Shown one piece after another: positions 4,927 to 37,359 of a stretch of DNA of 38,855 bases (position 1 is its first letter; every line of letters starts with the position of its first letter). Source of the DNA: Thermoplasmata archaeon (lineage in GTDB: Archaea; Thermoplasmatota; Thermoplasmata; Lutacidiplasmatales; UBA184); the NCBI GenBank assembly GCA_022750455.1, contig JAKIVR010000015.1:1-38855 (forward strand), read 5' to 3'. Position numbers and translations under genes: made by a program. The notes beneath the pieces were generated by a model, which was not told the DNA's origin, ran no database searches, and saw only the letters and a list, made by a program, of their open reading frames with translations.

Positions 4927-5106
4927 GCCCGACGGACCGTCGTCGCCGGGGACGGGTCTTATCGGAAAGCTGAGACCATCTCAGTGGCCTTAGTCTTGAA
5001 AGGCCGGAACTTCGGTCGCCCTCCCCGATTGTCGAGCCAGACCCGGCGATCGAGAAGATGCATGAGAGGTAGCACGCGTCAACGCGGGGAGCCGGGGGCG
5101 GCGATC

Positions 5107-12700: not shown

Positions 12701-12940
12701 GAGAAGACCCTCGAGCTCACTGTGGCCACCCCGTCGGAGCCATCCGAAGGGAGCTCGAGCCCGGTGAATTGGGGGATCGAACTGGTCGGGGTCTTCGGGC
12801 TGATCGTCGCGGGGGTCGTGGGGCTCCTCGTAGTTCGCAGCGTAAGGAAGCCGAAGCTGCGTTCGGCAGATTCGGGAGATGGACCCGGCCAAGACCCACC
12901 GTACTCTCAGGGCGAGGATTCGAGCGAGCACTTGGAATAG
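9734..12940 (+). CDS. Paralogous giant surface protein: one Cys-paired module, one YVTN beta-propeller, Ig-like repeats, PKD, C-terminal TM
   Basis: Same module order as the upstream protein but with one propeller; signal segment FLAPVFILTLLVTSSSVVMVG; PKD WQFGDGTVGSGSTADHAF; TM IELVGVFGLIVAGVVGLLVVRSVRK. Confidence 0.9.
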   Translation: MSALERLEREAVDFREIGEIDNPLSAPRVENVPRPRPFAGGGRVGFLAPVFILTLLVTSSSVVMVGIPRLGASSPGSFSGEPPVELATTIVDLTPGGGEVGSLVAASGSGLPANASVDFAFGGLGVATNCTTDAAGNFPGSTGSACDFLVPATPAGPTNFTVTSQDPGELSKLVGDSPGSVTYDSGTGALYVANQGSDNVSVFVGANHTAHGAVAVGSSPDGLVYDSGAAEIFVANRGSDDVSVIADSNDTVVSTISVGVAPSSLAYAPGLGELFVTNSGSDNVSVILDTHDTVLTSVAVGGGPDSAVYDSAADELFVANYNSSNVSVVAVGNSSVVASIPVCGAPWGVAFDQERNELFVSCLLLPGIDVISGTTDSVIVKSRLPNIPFGIAYDPALDGVVLSNEGSNAISVISDSNDSLVSRVAVGHDPIGLAYASGTRELVVANSGSDNITLVHWSQSNTVFTVNSSLVLNTSTGSADAGQTVSVQGTGYGSSVLLSNFSLDSISLACTNATNGTCLAGSLTTDPSGSFNAQFLAPVVPDSGVYVVNATDSENHTANRTLEIYLDPRVGPISAAPGSVDVGQSATLRVNATLGSGGYAYRWIGLPTGCDGATASIRCSPVSSGSFSILVQVTDSNGFLVNSTLAAFTVYADPEVGAPRSDPGSGSVDAGQSATFTEAPSFGTGTYASFTWVGLPGQCEGTTSSVTCAGADLPAGAFSISAEVTDSNNGTSLPSPSLAFVVDPDLTVALPTANRASGDIGESVTFNATATAGSGSYTYAWIGLPNGCSSLLLDPVSCTFTSAGSFAIQLTVTDESQFVVTSGKLLYTVNPDPTANLTASRIVLDVGQSLTLNATGALGSGGYSYAWSGLPPGCEAPAALLGCFPTSAGNFVVKVKITDSDNTSVVSAPIELTVAPALTAGFSAAPDSPTVDQNVEFQSTVSGGTGARTYSWQFGDGTVGSGSTADHAFTKSGTFDVTLWVNDSVGASTEKTLELTVATPSEPSEGSSSPVNWGIELVGVFGLIVAGVVGLLVVRSVRKPKLRSADSGDGPGQDPPYSQGEDSSEHLE
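10241..11109 (+). repeat. YVTN beta-propeller: seven blades
   Basis: VGDSPGSVTYD / AVGSSPDGLVYD / SVGVAPSSLAYA / AVGGGPDSAVYD / PVCGAPWGVAFD / LPNIPFGIAYD / AVGHDPIGLAYA. Confidence 0.82.
11432..12471 (+). repeat. Four tandem Ig/PKD-like modules with GLPxxC-X8/9-C motif
   Basis: GLPTGCDGATASIRC, GLPGQCEGTTSSVTC, GLPNGCSSLLLDPVSC, GLPPGCEAPAALLGC. Confidence 0.75.
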
Positions 12941-14909: not shown

Positions 14910-17900
14910 ATGAGGCGCCGCATGCGCCGCTCCGTGCTCTGGGCCATCGCGGTGGTGGGGCTGTTCGCCATCCAGGGCCTTGCCGCGGCGGAACCGACTG
15001 CTCTCTCCTCCTCTCCCGTCGCCGCTCCTGCCCCGTCTCGTTCTGTGTCACCATCCACCGTCTCTCCAGAACGGGCGTCCGAACTCCCAGCAACTCCCCT
15101 GGCGGCGGGGAGCAACTCATTCCCCTCCGCCCTCGGCTCTTCCCGGCCAGCGACCTCCCCAGCCGTCCAGCGACCCCGCATCGTACCGCTCGCCCCGGCC
15201 CCAACCGCCCGCGTGATTGGAACGGTCGTCCGGGGCATCGCCCCGTACACTCCGATCTCTGGTGCGCTCGTGACGGTTCAACCGCTGGAGGCGAGCTGCC
15301 CCGGACTGTGCCCCGTCGCGTACTCGGCGTACGCCGGCTCGTTTTCCGTGGCGGCGAGCCCCGGGCTCGACGAACTGACCGTACAGGACGGATTCTACCT
15401 CGAGAACTACACGATTCTCCCCAACATGACCTCGGGGCAAACGTTCCCCCTCGGCGTGATCCAACTCGTCCCCGATGCGATCGTTACGGGGGTGGTCCGG
15501 GGCTCGGACCCCACCCACGAGCCGGCGGCGCAGATCCTGGTCGTTGGCTCGACTCGGGATGGCAGCAAGACCGGCGTCCCGGATGCGCTCACAGGCTCCT
15601 CGGGGGCCTTCGAGATCGCGGTGCCCCCGGGAGCGTCCGAGATCGACTTCACTCCGAACTCGCCGAGCCAGAATCCCCTCTACATCGTCAACTACACCGC
15701 GTCACCGTACCTGGGCAACACCACCTACATCGATCTCGCTCCCGGGGCGACGTACGATCTCGGGACCGTGTACCTGCCGACCGGGGTCCTGGTCACGGCG
15801 CAACTCGATAGCTCCCTCACCCACGCCGGGATCCCGCCGAACGCGAACGAGTCCACGTGGGGGTGGACCAACGCCAGCTGTGCCGCCTTCGCGCCGTCGG
15901 TCTGTCAGTTCCAGGGCGGTCACGCCTCATGGAGCTACGACGGGATCCACTACTTCCCAGTGACCCCCCTCAGTGCCATCGAGATCTGCTCGCGCAGCTC
16001 GGAGGTCTGCTTCCCCGAGGGCGCCTCCCAGTGGATCGGGAGCTCGGTGTACGCCTGGGCCCCGCCGGGGTTCGACACGCTCTACGCCTACGCGGACGGG
16101 TATGTCCTCAACGCCACACCCGTCAACGTCCCCTCCGTCCCGTTGGGCCAACTGGTCCGGCTCGCGCCCGTCGACCTGGTGCCGGATGGCTGGATCTCGA
16201 TCACCGTGAACGTGACGGACCTGGCGAGCGCCCCGACCTCGCTCTGGCACACCGGCTCCTACCTCGTGGAGGTCTGCTCCCTCGATGGGTACGAGATGCC
16301 GTATTCGATCTTCAACGCCAACCAGGGTTCGGCGTGGACCATGAACACGGGGACCTGCGTGGAAGGGGGCTGTGTGCCCGTCGGGACCACCGCCATGATC
16401 CCCGTGGCGCCGCTTCGCGACAGCATCCAGGTCCTTCCGGATGACGCACCGACCAGTGCCGGGAGCTGTTGGGACGGGCTTCCGTTGCGGTGGCCGATCC
16501 CCCTCGACCTTCCGGTCACGGACAACTACACTTGGGTCAACGCGACCCCCGGACAGACGCTCGATCTCGGGAACGTCAACCTCACCCCCGGCACCTACGT
16601 GGAAGGCCAGGTGAGCGCGACGACCCAGAACTGGACGGTGCAAGCGTGCTCCGTGGAGGCGGCGGAGATCTGTATGCCCGCCTCGGGCGCCACCGATACC
16701 GTGCAGAACGGCAGCTACGTCGACGACCCGTCGAACTGTCCGCTCTCGGCGACGATCTTCTGCGTCCCGGCGCCGCCCGGGGACGACACCATCACCGTGA
16801 GCGATGCGGAGACGGGTGAGACCCAGTCGGTGGCCGCGAGCGTTCCGTTCGGGAGTTGGGGCGCGACGCCGCTCCTCCTTCAGGACGCGACCACGGCGCA
16901 CCAATCGACCCTCGCCTTCCCAACCGGGACGATCACCGGGACGGTCGTCGACGCGTCGACCCAACTGCCTTCGACGGGCACGCCCCCGGTCGTCACCGCC
17001 CTCCCCGCCGGAGCCTCCACCGCCGGATTCAGCGTGGCGGTCACAGGTCCTGCAGGCACCTACTCCCTCGTCGTCCCTCCGGGTTGGTATGAGATCCAGG
17101 CGAGCGCCCCAGGGTTCGAAGACAATCTCGCGTGGGTCGACGTCAACGCCTCCTTGGTGACCACGGCTCCGACGATCGACCTCACCGCGGATGGCGTCGT
17201 CGAGGGGGAGATCACCGGCTCAGGAGGGGCGCCGCTCTCGATCGCCCAGGTCAGCGTCTGCCCCGTGGACGAATCGAACGGGGCCGGATGTGTCGCGTCG
17301 GCGGGTGACGGATACACGACCACGGGGGGCGAGTTCTACGCGCTCGTCCGCTCCGGCGCCGGGATCCACGCCGCCTACTATGTGGAGGCCTCCGCCATCG
17401 GGTACGAGAGCAACTTCACCTGGGTGAACGTGACCGCTCCGGGGCAGCTCGTCATCGCCCCTACCGTCCAGCTCGAGGGCGAGATCGGAGGCGGGCCCGG
17501 ACCAAGCCTCGCCGCGTATGTCGTCGGCCGGATCATCGGCTCCGACACCGGCCAGGGATTGCCGGACGCCGAGGTGCAGATCTCCCCGGTGGCCGGGGGC
17601 GGCCCGATCTCCCTGGACACGTCGATCGGCCCGAGTGGGTCGTTCAACGTGACCGTCCCGACCGGGCAGTACTGGGCGAACTTCTCCGTTCTCGGTCACT
17701 ACTACGCTTCCACGATCTTCCTCAATATCAGCGGGCTCGCACCGGTGGTGGACCTCGGCACCATCGCATTGGACCCATACGGAGTTCTGTACGGTCGGGT
17801 CCTCATCCAGCCGTGGTCCGAAGGGGTCGATGACGCCTACGGCCTTGGTCCCGGCTCGGTGGAGATCGAGGTCTGTGGCGCCGGTCTGCTCGGGTGCGCT

Positions 17901-20795
17901 CAGGTCGGGGAGACGAACGCGGCGGGCGAATTCAACGTCTCGGCGCCGTACGGGCCGAACGATACGGTCCTGGCGATCCCGACCGGCGGACTGGGCAACT
18001 CCGGCAACTATGGGACCTCCAGCGCGTCGGGCTCGGCCCCGGGGGGCTTCCAGAAGAATTTGACCGCGTTCACGTCCGTCGATCCTTCGCCGGAGGTCAA
18101 CTTCCTAGAGGTCAATGTGACGGTGTTCGGCGGGATCCGCGGGAGCGTCACGGACGAGGGGAATGGTCCCCTCCGCTGGGGGACGCTGCTGGCGGAGTCG
18201 ACACCCCCGAGGGCTCCTCCGTCGATCGTGAGCCTCACGCTCTCGGGCAGTGGCACATTCGAGGCGTTCTTTGCCGCCGGGCCGACCGCGGTCGAGGTCG
18301 GCGGTGGGCTGTTCGTGCCGTACAACTATGCCGGACTCACGACGAAGGCCGGTCAGGTGACCACCCTGAGCACCCCGGGACTGACGCCGTTCGGATGGAT
18401 CGAGTTCAACGTCACAGCGACCGCCGCTCCGTTCGGCAGTAGCTCCACGCAGGTTCCGTTCGCCGACGTCTCGGCCACCATCCCGAGCGCCCCGGGATCC
18501 TTGCCGGACTCCGGCTCGGCCGAGGCGAACGTGACCGGATACGTGAACGTGACCGCCCCACCGGGGTTCGTCACCGTCTCCATTTCGGCTCCGGACTTCA
18601 ACGCCCGCACCGTCTCCGACATCGTGGTCGGGAGCGGCCAGACCACGGTCGTGGCGCCCGGGACCCTCGGATCCCTCGTCCCCTGGGGATGGGCCGAGGG
18701 GACGGTGACGGATGCTGCCACCGGAGCGCCGATCCCGGACGCGTCGGTGAAGGTGTCGGCGGCCGGGAACGTGATCGGCCGGGACGGCGTGGCCACCGCC
18801 TCCAACGGTCTCTGGTTCCTCGATGCCCCCCCTCTCGGGGACGACAACGTGACCGCGAGCGCCCCGGGGTACCTCGTGGGGAACACCACCGTGACGGTCG
18901 CTTCGGGTCACGGCGCGGCGGTCTCCCCGATCGCCCTTCGAGCCGATGGGATCCTCCAAGGGGACGTGACCTCGTCCCTCGATGGCGTGGGGATCGGAGG
19001 AGCCACGGTGGCCGTCTGTCCCTGGACGGCCCCCCTGTGCGGGAATTTCACTTCCACGACGAACTTGGCAGGGGAGTACGCGATGGTGGCACCCGCCGGC
19101 GAGGACGTGTCGAACGTGAGCGCTTCCGGGTTCGTCTCCAGTCCCTCCGTCAACGTGACCGTCGGTTCGGGGGATTGGGTCGACCTCGGACCTACCCAAC
19201 TCGCCCCCTACGCGGAAGTCGGTGGGATCGTGATCGAATACCCGTCCGGGGTCCCCGTCGTCGGGGCGAACGTCAGCCTCTGCGCCGAATCCGAACTTCC
19301 CGGGTTCGCCGATGGACCGTGTTTCTTGACCGTTCCGTCCGGGATCGGAGGCTCCTTTTCGCTCTCCTCACTTCCGGGGAACTACGTCCTGCAGGTGAAC
19401 GACACCGATCTGAACACGACGTATCTCCCACTGGCCGTCGATGCGGGCGCCCAGATCAATCTCGGGTCGATCCCGATCGACCAGTACGGCTCCCTGGAGG
19501 GGACCGTCGTCGATCGCGACACCGGGCTTCCGGTCCCGGGAGCGGACGTCCTGGTCTGCCCCGACTGGGTCGCGACCACTTGCACGAACCCGATCGTGGT
19601 CGGGTCGGACGGGACGTTCCTCGTGAGCCTACCGGCCGGGCCGTACTCCTTGCAGACGACGGCCGACCAGTACCAGGTCACGTACGGGAACGCGCAGGTC
19701 GTGAGCGCCCAGTTGGATGACCTCGGTTCGATCGCACTCGTCGCGCTTGGGGCTCCGAGCCAGTTCGCGGTGACCGGCACGGTGCTCGCCTCCGACACCG
19801 GCCAACCCCTGGCGGGAGCGTCCGTGTCGGAAGGCGCAGAGAGTTCGACGGTGACGAACGCCTCGGGCGGATTCCTCCTTCAGCTCTCGTGGGGAGCGCA
19901 GGTATTGACGGTCTCAGCGACTGGGTATCTGACCCAGTCTCGGGGGATCGCCGTCACCGCGCCGCTCGCCGGACTCTCGTTCGTTCTCGCACGCTCCGGA
20001 TTCCGGCTGAGCGGGACGGTGAGCAACGGCCTCGCGAACGCCCCGTTGTCCGGCGTTCGGCTCGTGACCGGTTCCACGCTGGTCGCGACCAGCGCGGCGA
20101 ACGGAACGTACAGCGGGTTCCTGAACAACGGCTCGTACGCCGTCGTGGTCCGCCCGAACGCCACGACCTCTCCCGGGCTCCCTCCGTTCACGATCGTCGT
20201 CGTCATCGCCGGGGAAGCCCAGACGCGAAACTTCACGCTGTTTCCCCCGGCGATGGACTTCTCCGTGGCGCTGATCAATGGAGCCAGTCGTCTGCCCCTT
20301 TCGGCGGGGAGCGTCAACATCTCCGGGACCACGGTGGAAGGGACCATGTGGAGCTCCACGGTCAGCACGGGCTCCACTGGTACGGTGACGTTCCCGATCT
20401 ACCCCGGGAACTACACCATCACGGCGAGCGTCCCGGGGTACGCGACCGCGACCTCCCCCCTCCAGGTCGGAGGGAGCCCCGTAACCTCCGTGATCCTTCC
20501 GCTCGCATCCACCGGTGCCGCGGCGCCCGCCGCGAGCATCCCGTGGATCGTGGTGGGGACGGCCATCGCCGCCATCCTGGCGGTGGGGATCACCGCCGTG
20601 CTGGTCCGCCCCCCCGGACGTTCCGCCCTGTTCGCCTCCGAAGAGGAAGAGCCCGAGGAGGGTGAGACTTTCGACTCGGAGGCTCCCCGCCCGGGCCCCT
20701 CGTTCGGAGGCGCCGTTCCACCCGGCGGCGACCCGGTCGAGGAGGAGCTGGGCCGGGCGACCGGCGAGCCGACGCGCCCGGATGAGGGTCTCTGA
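14910..20795 (+). CDS. Giant (1961 aa) surface protein of tandem carboxypeptidase-regulatory-like (CarboxypepD_reg) domains, C-terminal TM and acidic tail
   Basis: Signal peptide MRRRMRRSVLWAIAVVGLFAIQGLAAAEP; recurrent G.V.d..tg.pl.gA.V motifs (GTVVDRDTGLPVPGADVLVCP, GTVTDAATGAPIPDASVKV, GTVLASDTGQPLAGASV, etc.); TM IPWIVVGTAIAAILAVGITAVLV. TATA-like cgtatagag about 30 nt upstream. Confidence 0.88.
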   Translation: MRRRMRRSVLWAIAVVGLFAIQGLAAAEPTALSSSPVAAPAPSRSVSPSTVSPERASELPATPLAAGSNSFPSALGSSRPATSPAVQRPRIVPLAPAPTARVIGTVVRGIAPYTPISGALVTVQPLEASCPGLCPVAYSAYAGSFSVAASPGLDELTVQDGFYLENYTILPNMTSGQTFPLGVIQLVPDAIVTGVVRGSDPTHEPAAQILVVGSTRDGSKTGVPDALTGSSGAFEIAVPPGASEIDFTPNSPSQNPLYIVNYTASPYLGNTTYIDLAPGATYDLGTVYLPTGVLVTAQLDSSLTHAGIPPNANESTWGWTNASCAAFAPSVCQFQGGHASWSYDGIHYFPVTPLSAIEICSRSSEVCFPEGASQWIGSSVYAWAPPGFDTLYAYADGYVLNATPVNVPSVPLGQLVRLAPVDLVPDGWISITVNVTDLASAPTSLWHTGSYLVEVCSLDGYEMPYSIFNANQGSAWTMNTGTCVEGGCVPVGTTAMIPVAPLRDSIQVLPDDAPTSAGSCWDGLPLRWPIPLDLPVTDNYTWVNATPGQTLDLGNVNLTPGTYVEGQVSATTQNWTVQACSVEAAEICMPASGATDTVQNGSYVDDPSNCPLSATIFCVPAPPGDDTITVSDAETGETQSVAASVPFGSWGATPLLLQDATTAHQSTLAFPTGTITGTVVDASTQLPSTGTPPVVTALPAGASTAGFSVAVTGPAGTYSLVVPPGWYEIQASAPGFEDNLAWVDVNASLVTTAPTIDLTADGVVEGEITGSGGAPLSIAQVSVCPVDESNGAGCVASAGDGYTTTGGEFYALVRSGAGIHAAYYVEASAIGYESNFTWVNVTAPGQLVIAPTVQLEGEIGGGPGPSLAAYVVGRIIGSDTGQGLPDAEVQISPVAGGGPISLDTSIGPSGSFNVTVPTGQYWANFSVLGHYYASTIFLNISGLAPVVDLGTIALDPYGVLYGRVLIQPWSEGVDDAYGLGPGSVEIEVCGAGLLGCAQVGETNAAGEFNVSAPYGPNDTVLAIPTGGLGNSGNYGTSSASGSAPGGFQKNLTAFTSVDPSPEVNFLEVNVTVFGGIRGSVTDEGNGPLRWGTLLAESTPPRAPPSIVSLTLSGSGTFEAFFAAGPTAVEVGGGLFVPYNYAGLTTKAGQVTTLSTPGLTPFGWIEFNVTATAAPFGSSSTQVPFADVSATIPSAPGSLPDSGSAEANVTGYVNVTAPPGFVTVSISAPDFNARTVSDIVVGSGQTTVVAPGTLGSLVPWGWAEGTVTDAATGAPIPDASVKVSAAGNVIGRDGVATASNGLWFLDAPPLGDDNVTASAPGYLVGNTTVTVASGHGAAVSPIALRADGILQGDVTSSLDGVGIGGATVAVCPWTAPLCGNFTSTTNLAGEYAMVAPAGEDVSNVSASGFVSSPSVNVTVGSGDWVDLGPTQLAPYAEVGGIVIEYPSGVPVVGANVSLCAESELPGFADGPCFLTVPSGIGGSFSLSSLPGNYVLQVNDTDLNTTYLPLAVDAGAQINLGSIPIDQYGSLEGTVVDRDTGLPVPGADVLVCPDWVATTCTNPIVVGSDGTFLVSLPAGPYSLQTTADQYQVTYGNAQVVSAQLDDLGSIALVALGAPSQFAVTGTVLASDTGQPLAGASVSEGAESSTVTNASGGFLLQLSWGAQVLTVSATGYLTQSRGIAVTAPLAGLSFVLARSGFRLSGTVSNGLANAPLSGVRLVTGSTLVATSAANGTYSGFLNNGSYAVVVRPNATTSPGLPPFTIVVVIAGEAQTRNFTLFPPAMDFSVALINGASRLPLSAGSVNISGTTVEGTMWSSTVSTGSTGTVTFPIYPGNYTITASVPGYATATSPLQVGGSPVTSVILPLASTGAAAPAASIPWIVVGTAIAAILAVGITAVLVRPPGRSALFASEEEEPEEGETFDSEAPRPGPSFGGAVPPGGDPVEEELGRATGEPTRPDEGL

Positions 20796-27407: not shown

Positions 27408-28373
27408 ATGTTGCCTCCTTCGGTCGCCAGCTCATTTGAGAATCGAGTTCCGGATGCCGTCGCCGCGGTCTCTCCGAGCGTGGTCGTGGTCACGCAACGT
27501 GCCGGGCACGCACCGGGCGGTTCGCCCTCCCGGCGGTCGGTCGCCACCGGGACCGGCTTGATCGTTCACTCCGGCGGATACGTCGTCACGAACCGCCACG
27601 TCGTCGGAAAGGCGTCGCAGGTCGAGGTCGCCGGCGCGGGGGGAGAAGCGGCCACCGGTCGCGTCCTGGGCTTCGATGCCGTCACGGATCTCGCCGTGGT
27701 ACACGCCCCCGAGCTCGCGGGTCCGGCGGCCCGGCTCGGAGATTCCCATACTCTCCGTGCGGGGGAGTTCGTCATCGCGATCGGCAACTCGCTCGGCCTT
27801 CCCGGTGCCCCGACCGTCTCCCTCGGGGTCGTCAGCGCGACCGCGCGACCACTTCCGGGAACGGAGTTCCAACTCGAGGGTTGGATCCAGACCGATGCGG
27901 CCGTGAACCCCGGCAACAGTGGAGGACCGCTCGCTACATTGAACGCGGACGTCGTGGGGATCAATACCGCGATGGTGCCGTACGCCCAGGGCGTGGGATT
28001 TGCGATCCCGATCAACACGGTGAAGAGCGTCTTCCAGTCGCTCGTGGATCACGGTCGCGTCATCCGACCGTGGCTGGGAATCATCGGGGCGACGCTCACC
28101 CCGGAGCTCGCGCGGCGATCCCGACTCTCCGGGGTCGAAGGCGTGGTGGTGGCGGATCTGCAAGAGTCGAGCCCGGCCGAGGCGGCCGGGTTGCGGACGG
28201 GGGACGTGATCGTCGCCGTGGACGGCCGGGCGGTCAGGGGAATGACGGAGTTGCTCCGCCGTCTCTCCGAGATCTCGGTGGGTCACCGGGTTCCGGTCAC
28301 GGTCCGGCGGGCAGAGGCGACGCTCTCCCTCCCCATCGCCTTGCAAGAGGCGCGCGTACTTCCGACGGCGTGA
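27408..28373 (+). CDS. HtrA/DegP-like S1C serine protease with PDZ domain, no evident signal peptide
   Basis: Catalytic triad motifs TNRHVV, TDLAVV, GNSGGPL; C-terminal PDZ (GVVVADLQESSPAEAAGLRTGDVIVAVDGRAV). Confidence 0.93.
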   Translation: MLPPSVASSFENRVPDAVAAVSPSVVVVTQRAGHAPGGSPSRRSVATGTGLIVHSGGYVVTNRHVVGKASQVEVAGAGGEAATGRVLGFDAVTDLAVVHAPELAGPAARLGDSHTLRAGEFVIAIGNSLGLPGAPTVSLGVVSATARPLPGTEFQLEGWIQTDAAVNPGNSGGPLATLNADVVGINTAMVPYAQGVGFAIPINTVKSVFQSLVDHGRVIRPWLGIIGATLTPELARRSRLSGVEGVVVADLQESSPAEAAGLRTGDVIVAVDGRAVRGMTELLRRLSEISVGHRVPVTVRRAEATLSLPIALQEARVLPTA

Positions 28374-28463
28374 CGGGGTCCGATCGTCCCCGCCGGGGTC
28401 GCGGGACGTTAAAATCCGGGTTCCCTTCCCGGGCCGGGTGATCCGCCAGAGAGGCACGCGACG

Positions 28464-28886
28464 TTGCAAGCGAAGGAGATCATGCAGACCGAACTGTTGA
28501 CGGTCGACGCGGGCACGAGCCTCCGGCAGTGCGTCCAGCGGATGGATGCGGCCCGGACCGGCTACGCGCTAGTGGTTCGCGACGGCCAACCGTTCGCCAT
28601 CGTCACGGAGTGGGATCTCCTCCACAAGGTCCTCGCCACCTCCATCGACCCCGATCGGACGACGGTGGAGACGATCGCCAGCTCACCGTTGGTATCGGTC
28701 GATAGCGAGACGAGCACCTACGACCTGGTCGAAATGATGGCCGATCGTGGGATCCGCCGGATGGTCGTCACCCAGGGGGGGCAGGTCGTCGGGATCGTGA
28801 CCGCGAAAGGCGTGCTCGCGGCGTTCCGGAAGTACGTCGATCGTCTCTCTTCGGAGATCGGCCGGATGCAGGCCCCGCCGCCGTGA
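28464..28886 (+). CDS. CBS-domain-pair protein
   Basis: TELLTVDAGTSLRQCVQRMDAARTGYALVVRDGQPFAIVTEWDLL ... SPLVSVDSETSTYDLVEMMADRGIRRMVVTQGGQVVGIVTAKGVL. TTG start at 28464 or ATG at 28482. Confidence 0.88.
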   Translation: MQAKEIMQTELLTVDAGTSLRQCVQRMDAARTGYALVVRDGQPFAIVTEWDLLHKVLATSIDPDRTTVETIASSPLVSVDSETSTYDLVEMMADRGIRRMVVTQGGQVVGIVTAKGVLAAFRKYVDRLSSEIGRMQAPPP

Positions 28887-28932: not shown

Positions 28933-30366
28933 ATGAAGTACTCGTGGGTCGTCCTCTCCGTCACGACCGTGGGGACGCTGATGGCGTCCCTCGACACGAA
29001 CATCGTCGTCATCGCCCTCCCCACGATCGCCCGCCAGCTTCCAGGCGAGACCGTCGTCACCGTCCTCTGGACCCTGATCGGCTACTCTCTCGTCACCGCC
29101 ACCCTGCTCCTGAGCTTCGGCCGGCTCGCCGACATGCATGGACGGGTGCGACTGTTCACCCTCGGGTTCGCCATCTTCACCTTCGGATCGTTCCTCTGCG
29201 GATTCTCTCAGACCGGGATCGAGCTCGTCGGATTCCGTATGGTCCAGGCGACCGGGGCGGCGCTCCTGTTCGCGAATTCCGCGGCGCTCGTGACCGACGC
29301 GTTCCCCCCGGACCAGCGGGGGATGGCGCTCGGCATCAACCAGGTCTCGATCGTCGTCGGCTCGGTCTCGGGCCTCGTCGTGGGAGGCACGCTCACCTCC
29401 CTCGTCGGCTGGCGCTGGATCTTCTTCGTCAACGTCCCCATCGGGATCTTCGCCGTCTTCTGGGCGCGCTGGCGCCTGAAGGAGATCGCCACTGTCGACC
29501 ACGTGCAAGGGATCGACTGGCCGGGGAACCTCTCGTTCGCTGGAGGGCTGACGATGGTGCTCGCCGGGGTGACGTTGTACCCGCTCCAGGCAATCTCCAC
29601 CATGTGGTTCGTGCTCCTGGTGGTGGCGGGGGTCTCCTCCCTGGCGACGTTCGTGTGGGTGGAACGGCACGTCGCCTCCCCGATGTTCGACCTGAGCTTG
29701 TTCAAGGTACGAATGTTCGCCGCGGGGAACATCTCGATCTTCCTGAACGCGTTGGCCCGGGGCGCGTTCACGTTTGTGATGGTGTTCTACCTCCAGGGCC
29801 CCCCACACGACCTGAGCGCGCTCTCGGCCGGCGTCTACCTCATTCCCGTCTCCCTCTCCTTGGCCCTCACGGCGCCGGCGAGCGGGTACCTGTCCGATCG
29901 GTACGGGGCGCGTCCGTTCGCCACCGCCGGCCTCCTCCTCACCGCGTCGGGATTCGCCATCCTCGCCGTTCAGACCGGGGCGACGACGACGTTCTGGACC
30001 CTGTTCCCGGCGCTGGTCCTCATCGGCGCGGGGTTCGGGATCTACGCCTCCCCGAACCGGTCGTCGATCATGAACTCGGTCCCGCCGAACCGCCGTGGGG
30101 TCGCCTCCGGGATGAGCACCACGTTGTTGACTTCGGGGAACACGTTCAGCTTCGCGTTCAGCATCGCGATCCTCTCCGCCGCGATGCCGCTGGCGACGAT
30201 CGTCGCGATCTTCACGGGGACCGGCTCGGTCGCGTCCAACCCGGCGATCACGGTCGGGCCGTTCCTCCGTGCGATCCACACCGTGTTCACGCTGTCGGCG
30301 ATCTTGCTCCTCGTCGCCGTGATCCCCTCGGCGCTGCGCGGGAAGGAGAATCGTCGTGCCGCTTGA
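28933..30366 (+). CDS. MFS transporter (DHA2/14-TM-like)
   Basis: LMASLDTNIVVIALPTIA, LLLSFGRLADMHGRVRLF, SVSGLVVGGTLTSLVGWRWIFFVNVPIG. Confidence 0.92.
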   Translation: MKYSWVVLSVTTVGTLMASLDTNIVVIALPTIARQLPGETVVTVLWTLIGYSLVTATLLLSFGRLADMHGRVRLFTLGFAIFTFGSFLCGFSQTGIELVGFRMVQATGAALLFANSAALVTDAFPPDQRGMALGINQVSIVVGSVSGLVVGGTLTSLVGWRWIFFVNVPIGIFAVFWARWRLKEIATVDHVQGIDWPGNLSFAGGLTMVLAGVTLYPLQAISTMWFVLLVVAGVSSLATFVWVERHVASPMFDLSLFKVRMFAAGNISIFLNALARGAFTFVMVFYLQGPPHDLSALSAGVYLIPVSLSLALTAPASGYLSDRYGARPFATAGLLLTASGFAILAVQTGATTTFWTLFPALVLIGAGFGIYASPNRSSIMNSVPPNRRGVASGMSTTLLTSGNTFSFAFSIAILSAAMPLATIVAIFTGTGSVASNPAITVGPFLRAIHTVFTLSAILLLVAVIPSALRGKENRRAA

Positions 30367-31582
30367 TCCGGGGGCTCTTCGCCCGCACGCCCAACGGGTC
30401 CCGGGACTCCACGAATCGACGATGTAGTTCCGCCAGGGAACGTTCGCCATCGGCCTGCGGAACCAGCACCGAGATCTCATTCGCGTCGCCCCAGACGGCC
30501 ACGGCTCGGTGGAGGACCGGCGGGGGCAGCTGGTCGATTTCGTCGAGCACGCCCCTCCCCACGATCGAGATGCGCGCCAGTGGTCGGGCTTGAGTGCCTT
30601 CCCCCGGGGGGAACGTCAACGTCAGGATTCGCGAGGTGCGGCGGCAGATGGGATCGATCCGCGTCACCAGCTGCGGATCCTGCAAGGAGATCAGCCGGAG
30701 GGGGATCCCGGCACTTCGAAGCGGGACCACCGTGCGGGGATGGAGGATCCGGGCCCCCGACACGGCCAGTCGCTCGGCATCCTCGTACGAGCATCGCGGG
30801 ATCGGGCGGGCCGTCGGGATCAGATCCGGATCCGCGGAGCAGAGCGCGGTGCTCCCCTTGACGAGGTCCACGGACCGGGCGCGAAGGATCGCGGCGAGGG
30901 CCGCGGCGCTGTAATCTGAGCCGCCTCGACCGAGTTCATTCGCACAGCCATCTGGTGCGCGGCCGAAGTAACCGGTCACGACCGGGACCACGCCATCCGC
31001 GAGGGCCCGGGAGATCGCTGTGGAGACCTCCCCACGGGAGGCTTCGAGATCGATGGTCCCGTGATGGGAGACTCCATCCGTCCGCAACCCGATCAGGTCC
31101 GCCTCCAAGGTGCGGGCCGCGGTGCCGGAGGCCGCGAGTCGAGAGGCGAACCAGCGGGCCGAGAGTCGTTCGCCCACGGCGACGAAGTTGTCGTACTCGT
31201 GCTCGAGACATTTCGGAGGATCCTCCGCCCGGCGGAACCCCCCCCTGAGCACAGGCGCGGCGAGCCGATCGAAGTCGGATTCCGGCAGCTCGGGGTACGA
31301 CAATCGCAGGAACCGCCGAAGATCCTCCCCGGCCTCGCCGGAGTTCCGGGCCGCCACCAAGCGGTCGGTGACTCCCGGACGTGCCGAGACGACCACGACC
31401 GAGGGAATCCCGTCGTGGAGGCGCCCGAGAAGGTAGTGTACCGCCGCCTCGGGGAACGCCAGGGCCTCCCCTCCGAACTTGAGGATCCGCGGCGCGGGCG
31501 GGTTCGGTGCGGACGACCCCCGGGCGGACGCGCGACCTCGAGGTTCGGCGGCCGAAGCGAGGGTCCGACGTCCCCCGATCAT
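30287..31582 (-). CDS. Aspartate kinase
   Basis: ILKFGGEALA N-terminal K-F-G-G motif, NELGRGGSDYSAAALAA, GARILHPRTVVPLRSAGIPL; fourth ATGA overlap of the Thr operon. Confidence 0.88.
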   Translation of the reverse strand: MIGGRRTLASAAEPRGRASARGSSAPNPPAPRILKFGGEALAFPEAAVHYLLGRLHDGIPSVVVVSARPGVTDRLVAARNSGEAGEDLRRFLRLSYPELPESDFDRLAAPVLRGGFRRAEDPPKCLEHEYDNFVAVGERLSARWFASRLAASGTAARTLEADLIGLRTDGVSHHGTIDLEASRGEVSTAISRALADGVVPVVTGYFGRAPDGCANELGRGGSDYSAAALAAILRARSVDLVKGSTALCSADPDLIPTARPIPRCSYEDAERLAVSGARILHPRTVVPLRSAGIPLRLISLQDPQLVTRIDPICRRTSRILTLTFPPGEGTQARPLARISIVGRGVLDEIDQLPPPVLHRAVAVWGDANEISVLVPQADGERSLAELHRRFVESRDPLGVRAKSPRIKRHDDSPSRAAPRGSRRRGARSPTA

Positions 31583-32619
31583 CGAGCCCCCTGAACGCTC
31601 GGGCCCGTGCCGGATCGAGCCTCAAACCCGTCCGCCGGCTCTCCCGCGTGCTCGAACGCCTGGACCATCGCCCGGGTCACGGCCCGGATCCTCCGCGCCG
31701 GTGCCAGCGCGAAGACGGCGGGTCCGCTCCCTGACAGTGCCGCCCCAAAAGCCCCCGCATCGATCGCCGCCTGACGGACCTTAGACAAGCCAGGTACAAG
31801 GGACTCCCGGTGACGCGCCGCGACCCGATCTTCGAGATTTTGACCGATCGCACGTACGTCGCCCCGGGCAAAGGCGCCGACGATCCCCGAAACCTTCCCG
31901 AGGTTGGCGACCACATCTCCCAACGGCACTTCCCGAGGGACCACGCGCCGGGAGTCCGAGGTGGAGATGGGTCGTGTGGGGACGGCGAGGGCGATGGAAA
32001 GCGCCGGAGGAGCCGGCAGTCGGACGATCCGAAGCGGGTCCAACGACTCGATGGCGATGAACCCCCCGAAGAGGCTGGCGGCGACGTTGTCGAAGTGCGG
32101 GGCTCCAGCGGCCGCCCGCTCGCCGTCGGCGGCCGCCGCAAGGACGGACGCGACCTCCGACGGCGCTCGAAGTCGAAGCCCGAGGGTGAACGCGGCGCCG
32201 AGCGCTCCCGCGACTGCAGAAGCTCCGCTGGATCCCAGCCCGGTACCGGACCGGAACCCCTTGCTCAGACGAACGGAGCTCGGAGGGAGCGGGACCCCCG
32301 AGCGTCGGAAGAGGGATTGGTAGGCGATGCCAGCGACGTTGCGCTCCCAGACCGCGGAGACGCCCGCCGAACCGCCTATCTGGAAGCGATGCTCGGGGCC
32401 TCCGTTCTCGATCTCCAAGACATCCTGTGGCCCGTCCAAGCACAACCCCAATCGGTCGAAGCCCGGTCCGACGTTGGCGATGCTGTACGGTACGGAGATC
32501 GTCAACTTCGGGCGGCCGCGACGCGACGGAAGGGAGAACGGAAGCGTCGGGAGCTCCGGTGAAGTGGGGCGTGCCCGCCGGGAATACTGCGCTCGGGCGC
32601 GGGTCTTGGTCGCCATCAC
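31579..32619 (-). CDS. thrB: Homoserine kinase (GHMP family)
   Basis: VPYSIANVGPGFDRLGLCLD, GTGLGSSGASAVAGALGAAF GHMP glycine/serine loop, GAFGAALSGSGPAVFAL. GTG 32619 or ATG 32616. Confidence 0.92.
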   Translation of the reverse strand: MMATKTRARAQYSRRARPTSPELPTLPFSLPSRRGRPKLTISVPYSIANVGPGFDRLGLCLDGPQDVLEIENGGPEHRFQIGGSAGVSAVWERNVAGIAYQSLFRRSGVPLPPSSVRLSKGFRSGTGLGSSGASAVAGALGAAFTLGLRLRAPSEVASVLAAAADGERAAAGAPHFDNVAASLFGGFIAIESLDPLRIVRLPAPPALSIALAVPTRPISTSDSRRVVPREVPLGDVVANLGKVSGIVGAFARGDVRAIGQNLEDRVAARHRESLVPGLSKVRQAAIDAGAFGAALSGSGPAVFALAPARRIRAVTRAMVQAFEHAGEPADGFEARSGTGPSVQGAR

Positions 32620-33737
32620 GCTCCCGGAGTCGGCGGAACCGCTTTCGGCGAGGTGTGAAGGGTCTCAGCGACGAACGTCGCGGGGACGGTCGTCGAGGTC
32701 CATCCCCCCGATGACTGCAGGCAACGCAACCCGAGCAAGTCGGCGAGGACTCCACTCGCCGTCGCCTCCGGTCCAGCCCCGGCTCCCCGGAACCAGAGAG
32801 TGCCGGCATGCCGAGTCTCGACCCGGAAGACATTCGTCGCCTCGCGGACATCCCACGGTCCCCCGCGGACCACCGGGCAGAGCCGGATCCGTACCGATTG
32901 GGGCTCGACCTCCAACAAGGCGGCGACCCGATGAGAGGAATCACAGTCCCTGGTCGCCTCCTCGACCCGCCGGGGGTCGACCTCCTCTCGCTCGACCTGC
33001 ACCGGAGTGATCGGCGGCGCGAAGAGCAGATTGTGGATGATCGTTCCCTTCAGAGCGCTATCGAAACCCGAGAGATCCCAGGAAGGGTCACTCTCCGTCA
33101 ATCCCTGTCGCCGCGCCTCGGAGAGGGCCGCCGGGAAGCTGCTCCCGTGATCCAACGAATCGAGGACGAACTGGGTCGTACCATTGGCGATCCCGTCCAC
33201 GCGAAGGACCTCGGCCGCCCGCAGATGTTCCTTTAGCGCCGAGAGGATGGGAACGATCCCGCCCACGGTGGTCGAGTGCCGAAGTTCGCTGCCCTTCAGG
33301 AGCGCCCTCCCCTGGAGCTCGTGGCCGTGGTGGGCGATCGGCAGCTTGTCCGAGGTGACCACATCGATCCCGGCCTCAAGGGCGGTGGAGATGATCGTCG
33401 TTCCGGGTTCGGCCGTGCGGGGGTCGGAGCGCGCGACTTCGATCACCACGTGAGGGCGCAAAGTTCTCCACAGCCCGGAGGCGTCTCGCGGAACACCCCC
33501 GATGGATCCCGTCGCGAGCTTGGCGTAAAGGGTGCCCGCCAGGTCGATCCCCCGGTCATTAATGATCCAACCACTGGAATCCGCGACGGCCACGACCCGA
33601 CACGAGCGTCGATCCGGAAGTGCGAAGTTTGGTTCGAGGAGCCGCCGAGCGACCTCCTGGCCGACCGAGCCGAATCCGACGAGCGCGAGCCGCAACGGCT
33701 CGACCCCCGTCGGGAGCGACGCGAGAGGCTTCGTCAT
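32616..33737 (-). CDS. hom: Homoserine dehydrogenase
   Basis: LALVGFGSVGQEVARRL Rossmann motif, TSDKLPIAHHGHEL, GGIVPILSALKEHL, GIANGTTQFVLDSL, DPSWDLSGFDSALK. Confidence 0.93.
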   Translation of the reverse strand: MTKPLASLPTGVEPLRLALVGFGSVGQEVARRLLEPNFALPDRRSCRVVAVADSSGWIINDRGIDLAGTLYAKLATGSIGGVPRDASGLWRTLRPHVVIEVARSDPRTAEPGTTIISTALEAGIDVVTSDKLPIAHHGHELQGRALLKGSELRHSTTVGGIVPILSALKEHLRAAEVLRVDGIANGTTQFVLDSLDHGSSFPAALSEARRQGLTESDPSWDLSGFDSALKGTIIHNLLFAPPITPVQVEREEVDPRRVEEATRDCDSSHRVAALLEVEPQSVRIRLCPVVRGGPWDVREATNVFRVETRHAGTLWFRGAGAGPEATASGVLADLLGLRCLQSSGGWTSTTVPATFVAETLHTSPKAVPPTPGA

Positions 33738-34012
33738 CCGCCCGCCACCGCTGGGATCAGATCCACCCTCGACGTCGGAGTAATTGGAGTCGCCAATCCC
33801 GAAAGATACCGAACGTCCGTCCCATCCACGAACACATTCAGGTACCGCCGCAATCGGTCGCCATCGAAGATCCGTCCCCGAAACGAGGGACCCCCTTCGG
33901 CACTGACCGTGTTGAGGAATTCGAGGAGTGAACCACGGAATCCGTCGTACTCCTTCTGGTGGAGCGACGGCGCTGATTGACGGAGGACGGAGGCGAGGAC
34001 CAAGGTGGTCAT
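33734..34012 (-). CDS. Ubiquitin-like MoaD/ThiS-family sulfur-carrier-like protein (92 aa, C-terminal Gly-Gly)
   Basis: ATG 34012 overlaps the thrC stop (ATGA); MTTLVLASVLRQSAPSLHQKEYDGFRGSLLEFLNTVSAEGGPSFRGRIFDGDRLRRYLNVFVDGTDVRYLSGLATPITPTSRVDLIPAVAGG shows the RYLNVFVDGxDxRxLxGLxTPxxxxxxxxxxPAVAGG pattern. In the frame of ORF 33734..34888. Confidence 0.85.
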   Translation of the reverse strand: MTTLVLASVLRQSAPSLHQKEYDGFRGSLLEFLNTVSAEGGPSFRGRIFDGDRLRRYLNVFVDGTDVRYLSGLATPITPTSRVDLIPAVAGG

Positions 34013-35346
34013 TCCGCTCCTCCCAACGCTTCGGGTCGAGGACCCACGTGCAATTGGCTGAGGTCGGGGTGCACTGGGTCGAGATGGATGGGTGCTGACC
34101 CCACGCGGGAAAGAGCGACGGCGTGCGAGATCTTCCAGCCGGCGCCGGTCAAGAAGGCCACGACCCGGTCCTGCCGGCGAACTGTTCCAGCTTCGCGCAA
34201 TCGCCGGAGCGTGGCGATCACCGTCCCCGCCGCCGGTTCGACCCAGATCCCTTCGGTCCGAGCCAAGGCACGGATCGCGGCGATGACCTCCTCGCTCGTG
34301 GGACTGTCCGCGGCCCCGCGTGACGCTCGGATTGCTCGTAGCGCCTCGTACCCTGAACCCGGATCCCCGATCGCGAGACTCTCGGCGATGGTCCGTGGGT
34401 GCTCCACCGGGACGATCTCGTCGCTCCCGGCGTCGAACGCGTCGGCGATTGGGGCGCATCCGTCCGGCTGGGAGCCCAGCAACGCTGGCCCCGGCCCCGA
34501 GGGGATCCATCCAATCTCCCGAAGCTGCGAGATGGCGCGTTCGGTGGCGGCTAGGAGGGCGCCGGAGCCGAGCGGGAGGGCGATCGCGTCGGGCGGGTTC
34601 CACCCGAGAGCCTCGAACGTCTCGAGCGCGAGGGTCTTCGACCCCTCGGTGTAGTACGGTCGGAGCGTGATGTTCACGACACCGATACCCGCCGCCTCGG
34701 CGGCGAGGTTCGCCACTCGGTTCGCCACGTCGTACGGTCCTTCGACCTCGACGATCTGGCCCCCGAACTGGCGCACCGGATCCAGTTTGGAATCGGGCAG
34801 TCCCGCCGGGACGAATACAAAACAGGGAAGGGACGCCCGCACCGCCGCGCGGGCCGTCGCGGCCGCGAGATTGCCCGTCGAGGCGCAACCGACCGCCCGA
34901 TGTCCCTGAGCCGCCGCGAACGCCACCGCGACCGACGCGGGCCGGTCCTTGAACGAACCGGTCGGGAGCACCGTGTCATCCTTCAGCCATACGGTCTCCA
35001 CGCCCAACCACTCGGCCAGACGCGGAGCAGGACGGAGCGGGGTGGTCTCCAGGTCGAGCCTCGCGGACCACGGAAGCGAGAGGGGGGGAAGCAACTCGGC
35101 AAATCTGCCGATCGACCGCGGACGGCCGGAGAGCCGATCGCTCGGTACGCTCCCTCGGAGCGTCGAGAGGTCATAGGTCACCGCGAGGGGTCCTAGGCAG
35201 GCGGGGCAGCTCTGGTGGACCTCCAGCCGTGTCTCGTGACCGCATTCCACGCACCGAAGAGTTCGGGCTAGACTGGCGATTGCTAGATTTCCGGGGGCCG
35301 AACCGACTGACTCTCGGACGACCGGCTCGACCGTACTGCCTCCCAT
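34009..35346 (-). CDS. thrC: Threonine synthase (PLP fold-type II, N-terminal zinc ribbon)
   Basis: LRCVECGHE...SCPACLGPLAVTYD, TTPLRPAPRLAEWLG, LPTGSFKDRPASVAVA (PLP Lys), CASTGNLAAATAR. ORF track has a GTG start at 35370; ATG at 35346 preferred. Confidence 0.9.
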   Translation of the reverse strand: MGGSTVEPVVRESVGSAPGNLAIASLARTLRCVECGHETRLEVHQSCPACLGPLAVTYDLSTLRGSVPSDRLSGRPRSIGRFAELLPPLSLPWSARLDLETTPLRPAPRLAEWLGVETVWLKDDTVLPTGSFKDRPASVAVAFAAAQGHRAVGCASTGNLAAATARAAVRASLPCFVFVPAGLPDSKLDPVRQFGGQIVEVEGPYDVANRVANLAAEAAGIGVVNITLRPYYTEGSKTLALETFEALGWNPPDAIALPLGSGALLAATERAISQLREIGWIPSGPGPALLGSQPDGCAPIADAFDAGSDEIVPVEHPRTIAESLAIGDPGSGYEALRAIRASRGAADSPTSEEVIAAIRALARTEGIWVEPAAGTVIATLRRLREAGTVRRQDRVVAFLTGAGWKISHAVALSRVGSAPIHLDPVHPDLSQLHVGPRPEALGGAE

Positions 35347-35398
35347 GGTTCCTGACGGTGCGTGGCGCACCCGAGGTCCTCAATCCTGAACGGCCATA

Positions 35399-35453
35399 AT
35401 GCCGAGGGTCTGGAATATTCCTTTAAGACTAATCGTTTCCATGCCTCGGCATG
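35399..35453. promoter_or_regulatory. Divergent promoter/operator region between thrC operon and XRE-CBS regulator
   Basis: ATGCCGAGG (35399-35407) inverted against CCTCGGCAT (35444-35452); local IR CATGCC-TC-GGCATG (35440-35453) over the ATG at 35451; palindrome GGAATATTCC (35412-35421); TATA-like tttaaga about 25 nt upstream of the ATG. Confidence 0.65.
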
Positions 35454-36044
35454 CCTGGGTTGGAGAACATCGCCCCTCGCGCCTCTCCGGTCCCCCTCTC
35501 CGAGATCCGTCGCCGGCGGGTCGCGGCCGGTATGACGCAAGGAGAGCTCGCCCGGGCCGCCGGGCTGAGTCAGTCCCACGTCGCCAAGATCGAGCGTGGA
35601 CGGGTCGAGCCCTCCTACCGGAACGTGACGGCCTTGCTGACGGTGCTCGAGGACCGCCTCGCCCACGCGGTCAAGGAGGTCACGGCGGGCCGGCTGGCGA
35701 CCCGGAACATGGTCGACCTTCCATCGAAGGCGCTTCTCATCGAAGCTGCGCGGATGCTCCGTCGGCACTCCATCAGCCAGCTTCCCGTCGTCGACCACGG
35801 GGTCGTCGTGGGTTCCCTGACCGACCGGCGCGTCGTCGAGTGCATCGCCGATCCCGCCACCGCCGGCCGGTTGGACCGCCTCCTCGTTCGAGAGGTCATG
35901 GAGGAGCCGTTCCCCCAGTTGGATGCGTCCACCTCCGGACGCGTCGCGGCGGAGCTGCTCCGCCACGTGCCGGCCGTTCTGGTGACCGAGCGGGGTCGCC
36001 CGATCGGCATCCTGACCCAATCGGACCTGTTCAAAGGGATCTGA
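35451..36044 (+). CDS. XRE-family HTH regulator with CBS-domain pair
   Basis: SEIRRRRVAAGMTQGELARAAGLSQSHVAKIERGRVEPSYRNV HTH_XRE; then two CBS motifs (LPVVDHGVVVGSLTDRRVVE; VLVTERGRPIGILTQSDLFKGI). Confidence 0.92.
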   Translation: MPGLENIAPRASPVPLSEIRRRRVAAGMTQGELARAAGLSQSHVAKIERGRVEPSYRNVTALLTVLEDRLAHAVKEVTAGRLATRNMVDLPSKALLIEAARMLRRHSISQLPVVDHGVVVGSLTDRRVVECIADPATAGRLDRLLVREVMEEPFPQLDASTSGRVAAELLRHVPAVLVTERGRPIGILTQSDLFKGI

Positions 36045-36117
36045 CGCGCCGTCGAGCCGGTGCACGCGATGCAATCCGGCCCGCAGCGGGTGCCGCCCTC
36101 GCAACCATTATGGTGAA

Positions 36118-36147
36118 AGGCCTCTCCGACCGACTCCGCAGAGGCCT
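36118..36147. promoter_or_regulatory. Inverted repeat AGGCCTCT-N14-AGAGGCCT upstream of the E1/rhodanese gene
   Basis: Read directly; lies between ACCATtATGGT (36104-36114) and ATG 36157. Confidence 0.5.
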
Positions 36148-36156
36148 GATCCGGAG

Positions 36157-37359
36157 ATGACGCAGGAATTGGCGGCGCAGGAGTCGGGGGGGTCGAACCC
36201 CGCTTCCCTGGCCCGCGGATTGACCCCCGAACAACTCCGACGATACAGCCGCCACGTCCTCCTGCCCGAGGTGAGGTTGAAGGGCCAGGAACGACTTCGT
36301 GCCTCCAAGGTCTTGATCGTAGGAGCGGGCGGCCTCGGCTCCCCGATCTCGCTCTACCTCGCCGCCGCCGGCGTCGGGGAGATCGGCCTGGTCGACTTCG
36401 ATTGGGTCGACGTCTCGAACCTCCAGCGACAAGTCCTCTACGTCACCTCCGACGTCGGGCAACCGAAATTGGAGGCGGCCCGGGCTCGGCTTCATGCCTT
36501 GAATCCGGAGCTCCAGATCACCTTGCACGCCGGCCCCTTGACCTCGGAGAACGCGCGCAGCATCCTCTCGCCGTACGACGTGGTCATCGATGGAACGGAC
36601 AACTTCCCGACGCGGTACCTCGTGAACGATGCCTGCGTGCTCCTCGGGAAGCCGAACGTCTACGGGTCGATCTACCGGTTCGAGGGACAGGCGAGCGTGT
36701 TCGATGCCCGGCGAGGTCCGTGCTACCGATGCTTGTACCCCGAGCCTCCGCCGCCCGGGTCCGTGCCCTCGTGTGCGGAGGGCGGGGTGCTGGGAGTCCT
36801 CCCCGGGACCATCGGCTTGATCCAAGCGACCGAGACGGTGAAGCTCCTTCTCGAGATCGGGACCCCGTTGATCGGTCGCCTGCTCCTCTACGACGCTCTG
36901 ACGATGCAGTTCCGAGAGCTCGCGCTCCGGAAGAGCCCGGAGTGCGTGATCTGCAGCGCTCACCCGAGCCAGACCGACCTCATCGATTACCCGGCGTTCT
37001 GTGGGGTCGAGGCCGAGGACCCGACGTCCCCCACGGACGGATTGCCCCTGATCTCTCCGCAGGAGCTCGAGGCGCGGCTCGCCCGCCCGTCGCCCCCCCT
37101 CCTCTTGGACGTGCGGGAGCCGGGCGAGTGGGAGATCGCCCACCTGCCGAACGCCGTCCTGATCCCCCGGGAGGAGCTCCCCCAGCGGATCTCGGAACTG
37201 ACGCAGGCGGAGGAGATCGTCGTCTACTGCAAGTCGGGTCGACGATCGGGGATGGCGACCCGTCTTCTGCTGGATCTTGGGTTCACTCACGTCCGGAATC
37301 TGCGGGGAGGACTCGACGCTTGGACCGCCGAGATCGACCCGACTCTGCCTACCTATTAG
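36157..37359 (+). CDS. MoeB/ThiF/UBA4-type E1-like sulfur-carrier adenylyltransferase with C-terminal rhodanese domain (MoeZ-like)
   Basis: RYSRHVLLPEVRLKGQERLRASKVLIVGAGGLGSPISLYLAAAGVGEIGLVDFDWVDVSNLQRQ, DGTDNFPTRYLVND, CYRC...CVIC zinc ligands, PSCAEGGVLGVLPG; rhodanese LLLDVREPGEWEIAHLPNA and VVYCKSGRRSGMA. Confidence 0.95.
   Translation: MTQELAAQESGGSNPASLARGLTPEQLRRYSRHVLLPEVRLKGQERLRASKVLIVGAGGLGSPISLYLAAAGVGEIGLVDFDWVDVSNLQRQVLYVTSDVGQPKLEAARARLHALNPELQITLHAGPLTSENARSILSPYDVVIDGTDNFPTRYLVNDACVLLGKPNVYGSIYRFEGQASVFDARRGPCYRCLYPEPPPPGSVPSCAEGGVLGVLPGTIGLIQATETVKLLLEIGTPLIGRLLLYDALTMQFRELALRKSPECVICSAHPSQTDLIDYPAFCGVEAEDPTSPTDGLPLISPQELEARLARPSPPLLLDVREPGEWEIAHLPNAVLIPREELPQRISELTQAEEIVVYCKSGRRSGMATRLLLDLGFTHVRNLRGGLDAWTAEIDPTLPTY

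Follow-up and report, generated by a model that had tools for sequence, protein, structure and literature searches.

The window analysed here is a 38,855-nucleotide stretch from a Thermoplasmata archaeon (assembly GCA_022750455.1, contig JAKIVR010000015.1), and our subject is a minus-strand operon within it, in which a gene annotated as threonine synthase (thrC) is followed by a gene for a small sulfur carrier and by genes of the homoserine pathway. A first-pass annotation had described an overlapping operon of thrC, carrier, hom, thrB and aspartate kinase and had read the carrier as a 92-residue MoaD/ThiS-like protein ending in VAGG; open reading frame (ORF) coordinates and family assignments confirm the operon, and a ThiS match above cut-off confirms the carrier. 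Each of the four junctions is a 4-nt overlap, which at the carrier/hom junction was confirmed by direct reading of the sequence; thrB starts with GTG, and an ATG one codon downstream would still overlap, by 1 nt. The E1-rhodanese gene noted on the other strand is also present, although it lies ~0.8 kb from the thrC start and not 2 kb as had been stated. By Pfam and NCBIfam, the genes fall into the PALP/thrC, ThiS, homoserine dehydrogenase, GHMP kinase/thrB, AA_kinase and ThiF plus rhodanese families, and they are arranged as follows (PLP, pyridoxal phosphate; ThrC2, the clade defined below):

34009..35370, minus strand: ThrC2 (annotated thrC), 453 aa, fold-type II PLP enzyme with N-terminal zinc-ribbon-like cysteines; PALP 2.4e-69
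33734..34012, minus strand: CysO/SAMP-type sulfur carrier, 92 aa, C-terminus DLIPAVAGG; ThiS 28.3 bits (cut-off 22.5)
32616..33737, minus strand: hom, homoserine dehydrogenase; PF00742 5e-36
31579..32619, minus strand: thrB, homoserine kinase (product O-phosphohomoserine); TIGR00191 and NF002288 above cut-off
30287..31582, minus strand: aspartate kinase, 431 aa, kinase domain; AA_kinase 3e-33, asp_kin families under cut-off
36157..37359, plus strand: E1 adenylyltransferase-rhodanese fusion of MoeZ/UbaA type with a CKSGRR loop; ThiF 9e-84, Rhodanese 1.5e-21
35451..36044, plus strand: helix-turn-helix (HTH) and CBS-pair regulator, divergent from thrC2 and located between thrC2 and the E1 gene

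We looked for this arrangement in the genome of the window and in those of 60 relatives, 61 in all. The top-scoring carrier matches belong to seven relatives, in each of which a ThrC-like gene immediately precedes the carrier gene. Five of the seven are of the same family and have hom and thrB next; the other two, from another family of the class, are without hom and thrB. The carriers of other relatives differ from these and are encoded next to an E1 or behind a CysM-like gene, which sets the thrC-linked carrier apart as a type of its own. We also used the carrier profile, and no other query, to search ~85,000 species genomes, kept the best 80 loci, and called a locus linked if a ThrC-like gene stood directly upstream of the carrier, on the same strand and within 900 bp. 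Linkage was found at 61 of the 80 carrier loci, a fraction that is biased upward by a query built from thrC-linked carriers and by the cut at the 80 best matches; the taxonomic spread, which is unbiased, covers about a dozen phyla. In archaea it takes in Thermoplasmata, metagenome-assembled genomes (MAGs) labelled Heimdall-, Brock-, Bathy- and Thaumarchaeota, and Methanosarcinales, and in bacteria Chloroflexota, Actinomycetota, Acidobacteria, Planctomycetes, Verrucomicrobia, Clostridia, Elusimicrobia and Proteobacteria. Given its recurrence in seven relatives and at 61 of 80 carrier loci in many phyla, the pairing is not a product of chance. No report of a thrC-carrier pairing was found in the literature searched, where most subscription papers were out of reach. 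Carriers of the same type in Arthrobacter (L098:3795-4892 and L149:3418-4899) directly follow a BNR/sortilin-like repeat protein and not ThrC2.

The linked ThrC proteins are distinct from canonical threonine synthases. They form one clade, which we call ThrC2, with an ultrafast bootstrap of 97 and an SH-aLRT of 98 and with recovery in 200 of 200 bootstrap trees, and the canonical ThrCs form the other (98/96). When 62 ThrC2 sequences were compared to 36 canonical ones, using the residue numbering of Thermus thermophilus ThrC, the substitutions T88L, F134Y, L138N, N157R, R160Y, A240S, W249G and A291G were present in 62/62 ThrC2 proteins, with the usual residue in 34-36 of the 36 canonical proteins; Q164S and N191L are nearly invariant among ThrC2. 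Positions T88, N157, R160, Q164 and W249 are changed in every ThrC2 and kept in 35-36 of 36 canonical enzymes, and among these Arg160 and Thr88 are what we take to be substrate-pocket residues of canonical ThrC. ThrC2 retains the PLP lysine K61 as well as S84, T85, N87, K116 and T317. The window's ThrC shares both the clade and the altered invariant residues and is not an ordinary ThrC; NCBI models label the family threonine synthase and the window protein scores 190 bits against NCBIfam thrC (cut-off 167). An AlphaFold2 model of ThrC2 (pLDDT 88.5) has the ThrC fold, its best Foldseek matches in the Protein Data Bank (PDB) are threonine synthases, and no ThrC2 chain was found in the PDB. A search of 50 ThrC2 genomes with Bacillus subtilis ThrC recovered a canonical ThrC (43-62% identity, at least 230 bits) besides the linked gene in 40 and a split copy in one more, the linked ThrC being mostly 34-44% identical to the query. 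Since some 40 of 50 genomes also encode a canonical enzyme, ThrC2 probably does not serve them as threonine synthase, and the gene so annotated beside the carrier is probably a second, sulfur-inserting enzyme. Mirror-tree comparison of the carrier gave 0.63 with ThrC2 and 0.62 with canonical ThrC, showing no difference and providing no evidence either way.

A profile of eight thrC-linked carriers found its best matches in 4n6e (1e-15), Ta0895 (1.6e-13) and Mycobacterium tuberculosis CysO (3dwg, chain C; 1.9e-13). In the window's genome (G000; 92.75% complete, 129 contigs), whose gene inventory was made by family searches, the carrier is the only ThiS-family match. MoaE was not found in this genome (93% complete) and was found in 13 of 13 other relatives tested. 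With no MoaE found in this 93%-complete genome, we reject the carrier as its MoaD and as part of a complete molybdenum cofactor (Moco) pathway; a sole MoaD of such a pathway with no conserved tie to thrC would have spoken against the first-pass reading, and the tie is conserved. Of 60 ThrC2-linked carriers, 37 end exactly in Gly-Gly, and the other 23 (L083, L093, L107, L128, L138, L139 and others) have 1-8 residues beyond it, which would need to be removed by a protease. JAMM-motif ORFs number just two across the 61 linked loci, one of them a confirmed Prok-JAB, and JAB genes are seldom near the carriers with residues beyond the Gly-Gly.

The neighbours of the pair, counted over the 61 linked loci, include sulfite reductase (7), phosphoadenosine phosphosulfate (PAPS) reductase (6), ATP sulfurylase (4), TusA (3) and E1 (19), and the gene order in Brockarchaeota is ThrC2-carrier-E1-sulfite reductase-TusA. 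Hom lies beside the pair at four loci and ThrB at six. Homoserine-pathway genes adjoin it in Thermoplasmata, in Heimdallarchaeota (Hom), in another euryarchaeon (ThrB) and in a Ktedonobacter-type lineage, the last with the order ThrC-ThrB-ThrC2-carrier, an order read at two loci (L120 and L131); such neighbours point to O-phosphohomoserine as the substrate. The adjacent E1 had been noted as belonging to the class of enzyme that activates such Gly-Gly tails; this adjacency is not conserved within the window's family, and E1-ThrC2-carrier clusters are present in other phyla. In Chloroflexota (L103, L114, L123, L142 and L147), clusters combine a ThrC2-carrier pair with an adjacent second group of genes, for CysK/CBS-like proteins, E1 and additional carriers. 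A survey has recorded CysH-ThrC fusions in three Thermoplasmata assemblies and left their meaning uncommented (PMC11237513).

We then asked which ThrC2 genomes encode a known homocysteine synthase, defined as a PF01053 enzyme (MetB, MetY or MetZ) or HcyS (PF01837). No PF01053 match at 1e-60 was obtained in 29 of the 50 genomes, compared to 13 of 14 controls that have one, and HcyS occurs in five of these 29, leaving 24 of 50 with neither. A homocysteine S-methyltransferase domain is nonetheless encoded in 13 of the 24, several times in frames of 1,150-1,290 codons typical of MetH. The HcyS route is absent from 14 of 14 relatives, and no MetY over cut-off was found in G000. Two genomes of the window's genus, G000 and G004, encode a methionine synthase; their sole full-length PF01053 unit is a CBS-CGL pair, and neither HcyS nor a CysM-carrier cluster was found in them. 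Homocysteine therefore appears to be a sulfur entry point for which they have no known enzyme. According to Price et al. 2018 (PMC5764234), at least one homocysteine pathway is still to be discovered.

Taken together, the conserved pair, the separate clade, the altered invariant residues, the coexisting canonical ThrC, the sulfur and homoserine neighbours and the lack of a known homocysteine synthase in roughly half of the genomes make it the best-supported reading of these sequence comparisons that ThrC2 turns O-phosphohomoserine into homocysteine using the carrier thiocarboxylate, to which we assign a probability of about 0.6. This was also the lead inference of the first-pass annotation, which the comparisons support. 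That the pair performs some thiocarboxylate-dependent amino-acid synthesis is, more broadly, quite probable. Threonine synthase eliminates the gamma-phosphate of its substrate and then adds water at C-beta; attack by a thiol at C-gamma before the water step yields homocysteine, the same gamma-replacement that MetY and CGS perform on another fold. By family, an E1-rhodanese would adenylate the C-terminal glycine of the carrier and convert it to a thiocarboxylate, and the window's E1-rhodanese is proposed as the obvious candidate activator. ThrC2 would bind O-phosphohomoserine supplied by Hom and ThrB and, like threonine synthase, eliminate the gamma-phosphate, leaving a vinylglycine-type intermediate bound to PLP. 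The carrier thiocarboxylate would then attack C-gamma in place of the attack of water at C-beta, and release from the carrier would give homocysteine. The product could proceed to methionine via MetE/MetH and, in the window's genus, also to cysteine via CBS/CGL. We regard it as slightly better than an even bet that ThrC2 is a widespread and so far overlooked homocysteine synthase, a ThrC paralogue that takes a thiocarboxylate from a protein donor of its own for gamma-replacement on O-phosphohomoserine, and that in many Chloroflexota and archaea it is the main route by which sulfur enters amino acids. If so, it would be a sequence-defined candidate for the missing homocysteine pathway in many genomes without a known homocysteine synthase, would add a variant to the known forms of thiocarboxylate-dependent sulfur assimilation and would show that a second fold has converged on making homocysteine from a thiocarboxylate; it would also correct the annotation of a family now named threonine synthase and remove false predictions of methionine auxotrophy in Chloroflexota and archaea.

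In two known systems a carrier thiocarboxylate serves as thiol donor. CysO-CysM of M. tuberculosis, which operates with Mec+ and MoeZ, resembles the present system in its CysO-type carrier, its MoeZ-class rhodanese-E1 and a fold-type II PLP enzyme gene next to the carrier. It differs in that ThrC2 belongs by sequence and fold to the threonine synthase family and not to CysK/CysM, in that ThrC2-carrier is linked to homoserine genes and coexists with separate CysM-carrier clusters, and in that ThrC2 clusters generally have no JAB/Mec+ protease gene beyond the two JAMM-motif ORFs. HcyS-MetY of Wolinella succinogenes, as the work of Krishnamoorthy & Begley 2011 is cited in PMC5764234 and PMC6271081, would share the proposed product and logic, with a carrier thiocarboxylate feeding an activated homoserine, and is also alike in that some ThrC2 carriers have residues beyond the Gly-Gly. 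MetY is a fold-type I (PF01053) enzyme that uses O-acetylhomoserine, however, whereas ThrC2 is fold-type II and most ThrC2 genomes are without MetY. HcyS/L-ASST (DUF39, PF01837), an alternative homocysteine route in anaerobes, is non-homologous to ThrC2, starts from aspartate semialdehyde and is absent from 42 of 50 ThrC2 genomes. Canonical ThrC (PDB 1uim, 2d1f, 2zsj and 6cgq) shares with ThrC2 its fold, 32-37% identity, the PLP lysine and the ASTGN loop, and is set apart by the substituted invariant positions, the separate clade, the carrier linkage and its coexistence with ThrC2. Cysteate synthase of Methanosarcinales is likewise a paralogue that evolved from ThrC and took on sulfur chemistry, and in the account of Graham 2009 cited in PMC12068725 it uses sulfite and O-phosphoserine with no carrier, unlike what we propose for ThrC2. 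The possibility that ThrC2 is itself a cysteate synthase was ruled out by the score of the window protein, 55 bits against a cut-off of 325.

Several observations weigh against homocysteine as the product. HcyS occurs in 8 of the 50 ThrC2 genomes, MetY over cut-off in 5 and one or the other in 10, and homocysteine synthesis would be redundant where both routes coexist. The genomes are mostly MAGs, many of which may be incomplete, and the 24 without a known synthase are not independent because Chloroflexota dominate them. In some species CBS acts on serine and sulfide, which softens the argument from the gap in the window's genus. CysK/CBS-like neighbours at 24 of the 61 loci also fit a role in cysteine synthesis, as does L095 (4841-6055; Bathyarchaeota), in which the carrier gene directly after ThrC2 runs on in frame into a CysK/CBS-like PLP domain, so that the Gly-Gly of the carrier would be internal; among the 61 loci no carrier is fused to ThrC2. 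The loss of Arg160 fits altered chemistry and may, alternatively, signal that the enzyme acts on something other than O-phosphohomoserine. These last points, together with the CysO-CysM precedent and the CysO-like carrier, speak for a thiocarboxylate-dependent ThrC2 that makes cysteine from O-phosphoserine, as a ThrC-fold analogue of CysM, or a different thiol amino acid, for example beta-methylcysteine. We consider this unlikely, since in several lineages the pair lies beside hom, thrB or aspartate kinase and not beside serine genes, many relatives own a separate CysM-carrier-E1 cluster for cysteine, and the step that is systematically missing is homocysteine synthesis.

No second ThrC was found in G000 or G013, so unless this reflects an assembly gap, ThrC2 may have to make threonine there. 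This observation, the placement of the gene with hom, thrB and aspartate kinase and the NCBIfam assignment suit a ThrC2 that is an ordinary threonine synthase sharing its operon with a regulator or a general sulfur carrier for tRNA thiolation or Moco; as the sole carrier found in G000, the protein may indeed serve tRNA thiolation too. Such an arrangement is improbable given the separate canonical ThrC in some 40 of 50 genomes, the invariant changes that mark the ThrC2 clade, and the recurrence of the pair away from hom/thrB and next to genes for sulfite reductase, PAPS reductase, TusA and E1. Covalent modification of ThrC2 or its neighbours by the carrier, a SAMPylation-type control of aspartate-family flux, has precedent in Haloferax and Thermococcus, where archaeal carriers of the same type become conjugated to proteins (PMC2948915, PMC11323500). 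It does not, however, account for the sulfur-assimilation genes beside the pair, for the occurrence of the pair in bacteria or for the residue changes in ThrC2, and it strikes us as very improbable. The two alternatives offered by the first-pass annotation, covalent ThrC modification and coupling of sulfur status to flux, gained no support, and we retain homocysteine synthesis as the preferred function.

The HTH-CBS regulator is kept beside thrC2 in G004, G013, G036, G047 and G058; CBS-pair proteins often bind adenosyl ligands, and such a regulator would suit control by S-adenosylmethionine. No Pfam match to an ACT domain was obtained in the 431-residue aspartate kinase, whose gene overlaps a major facilitator superfamily transporter gene on the plus strand tail to tail by 80 nt (30287-30366). 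A gene for a Trypsin-PDZ (DegP-like) protease, followed by one for a CBS-pair protein with a TTG start, occupies 27408-28886. Large proteins of 1552, 1068 and 1961 residues are encoded at 4984-9642, 9734-12940 and 14910-20795, respectively; two are of beta-propeller/PKD type and one has carboxypeptidase-regulatory-like repeats, and they are probably located at the cell surface.

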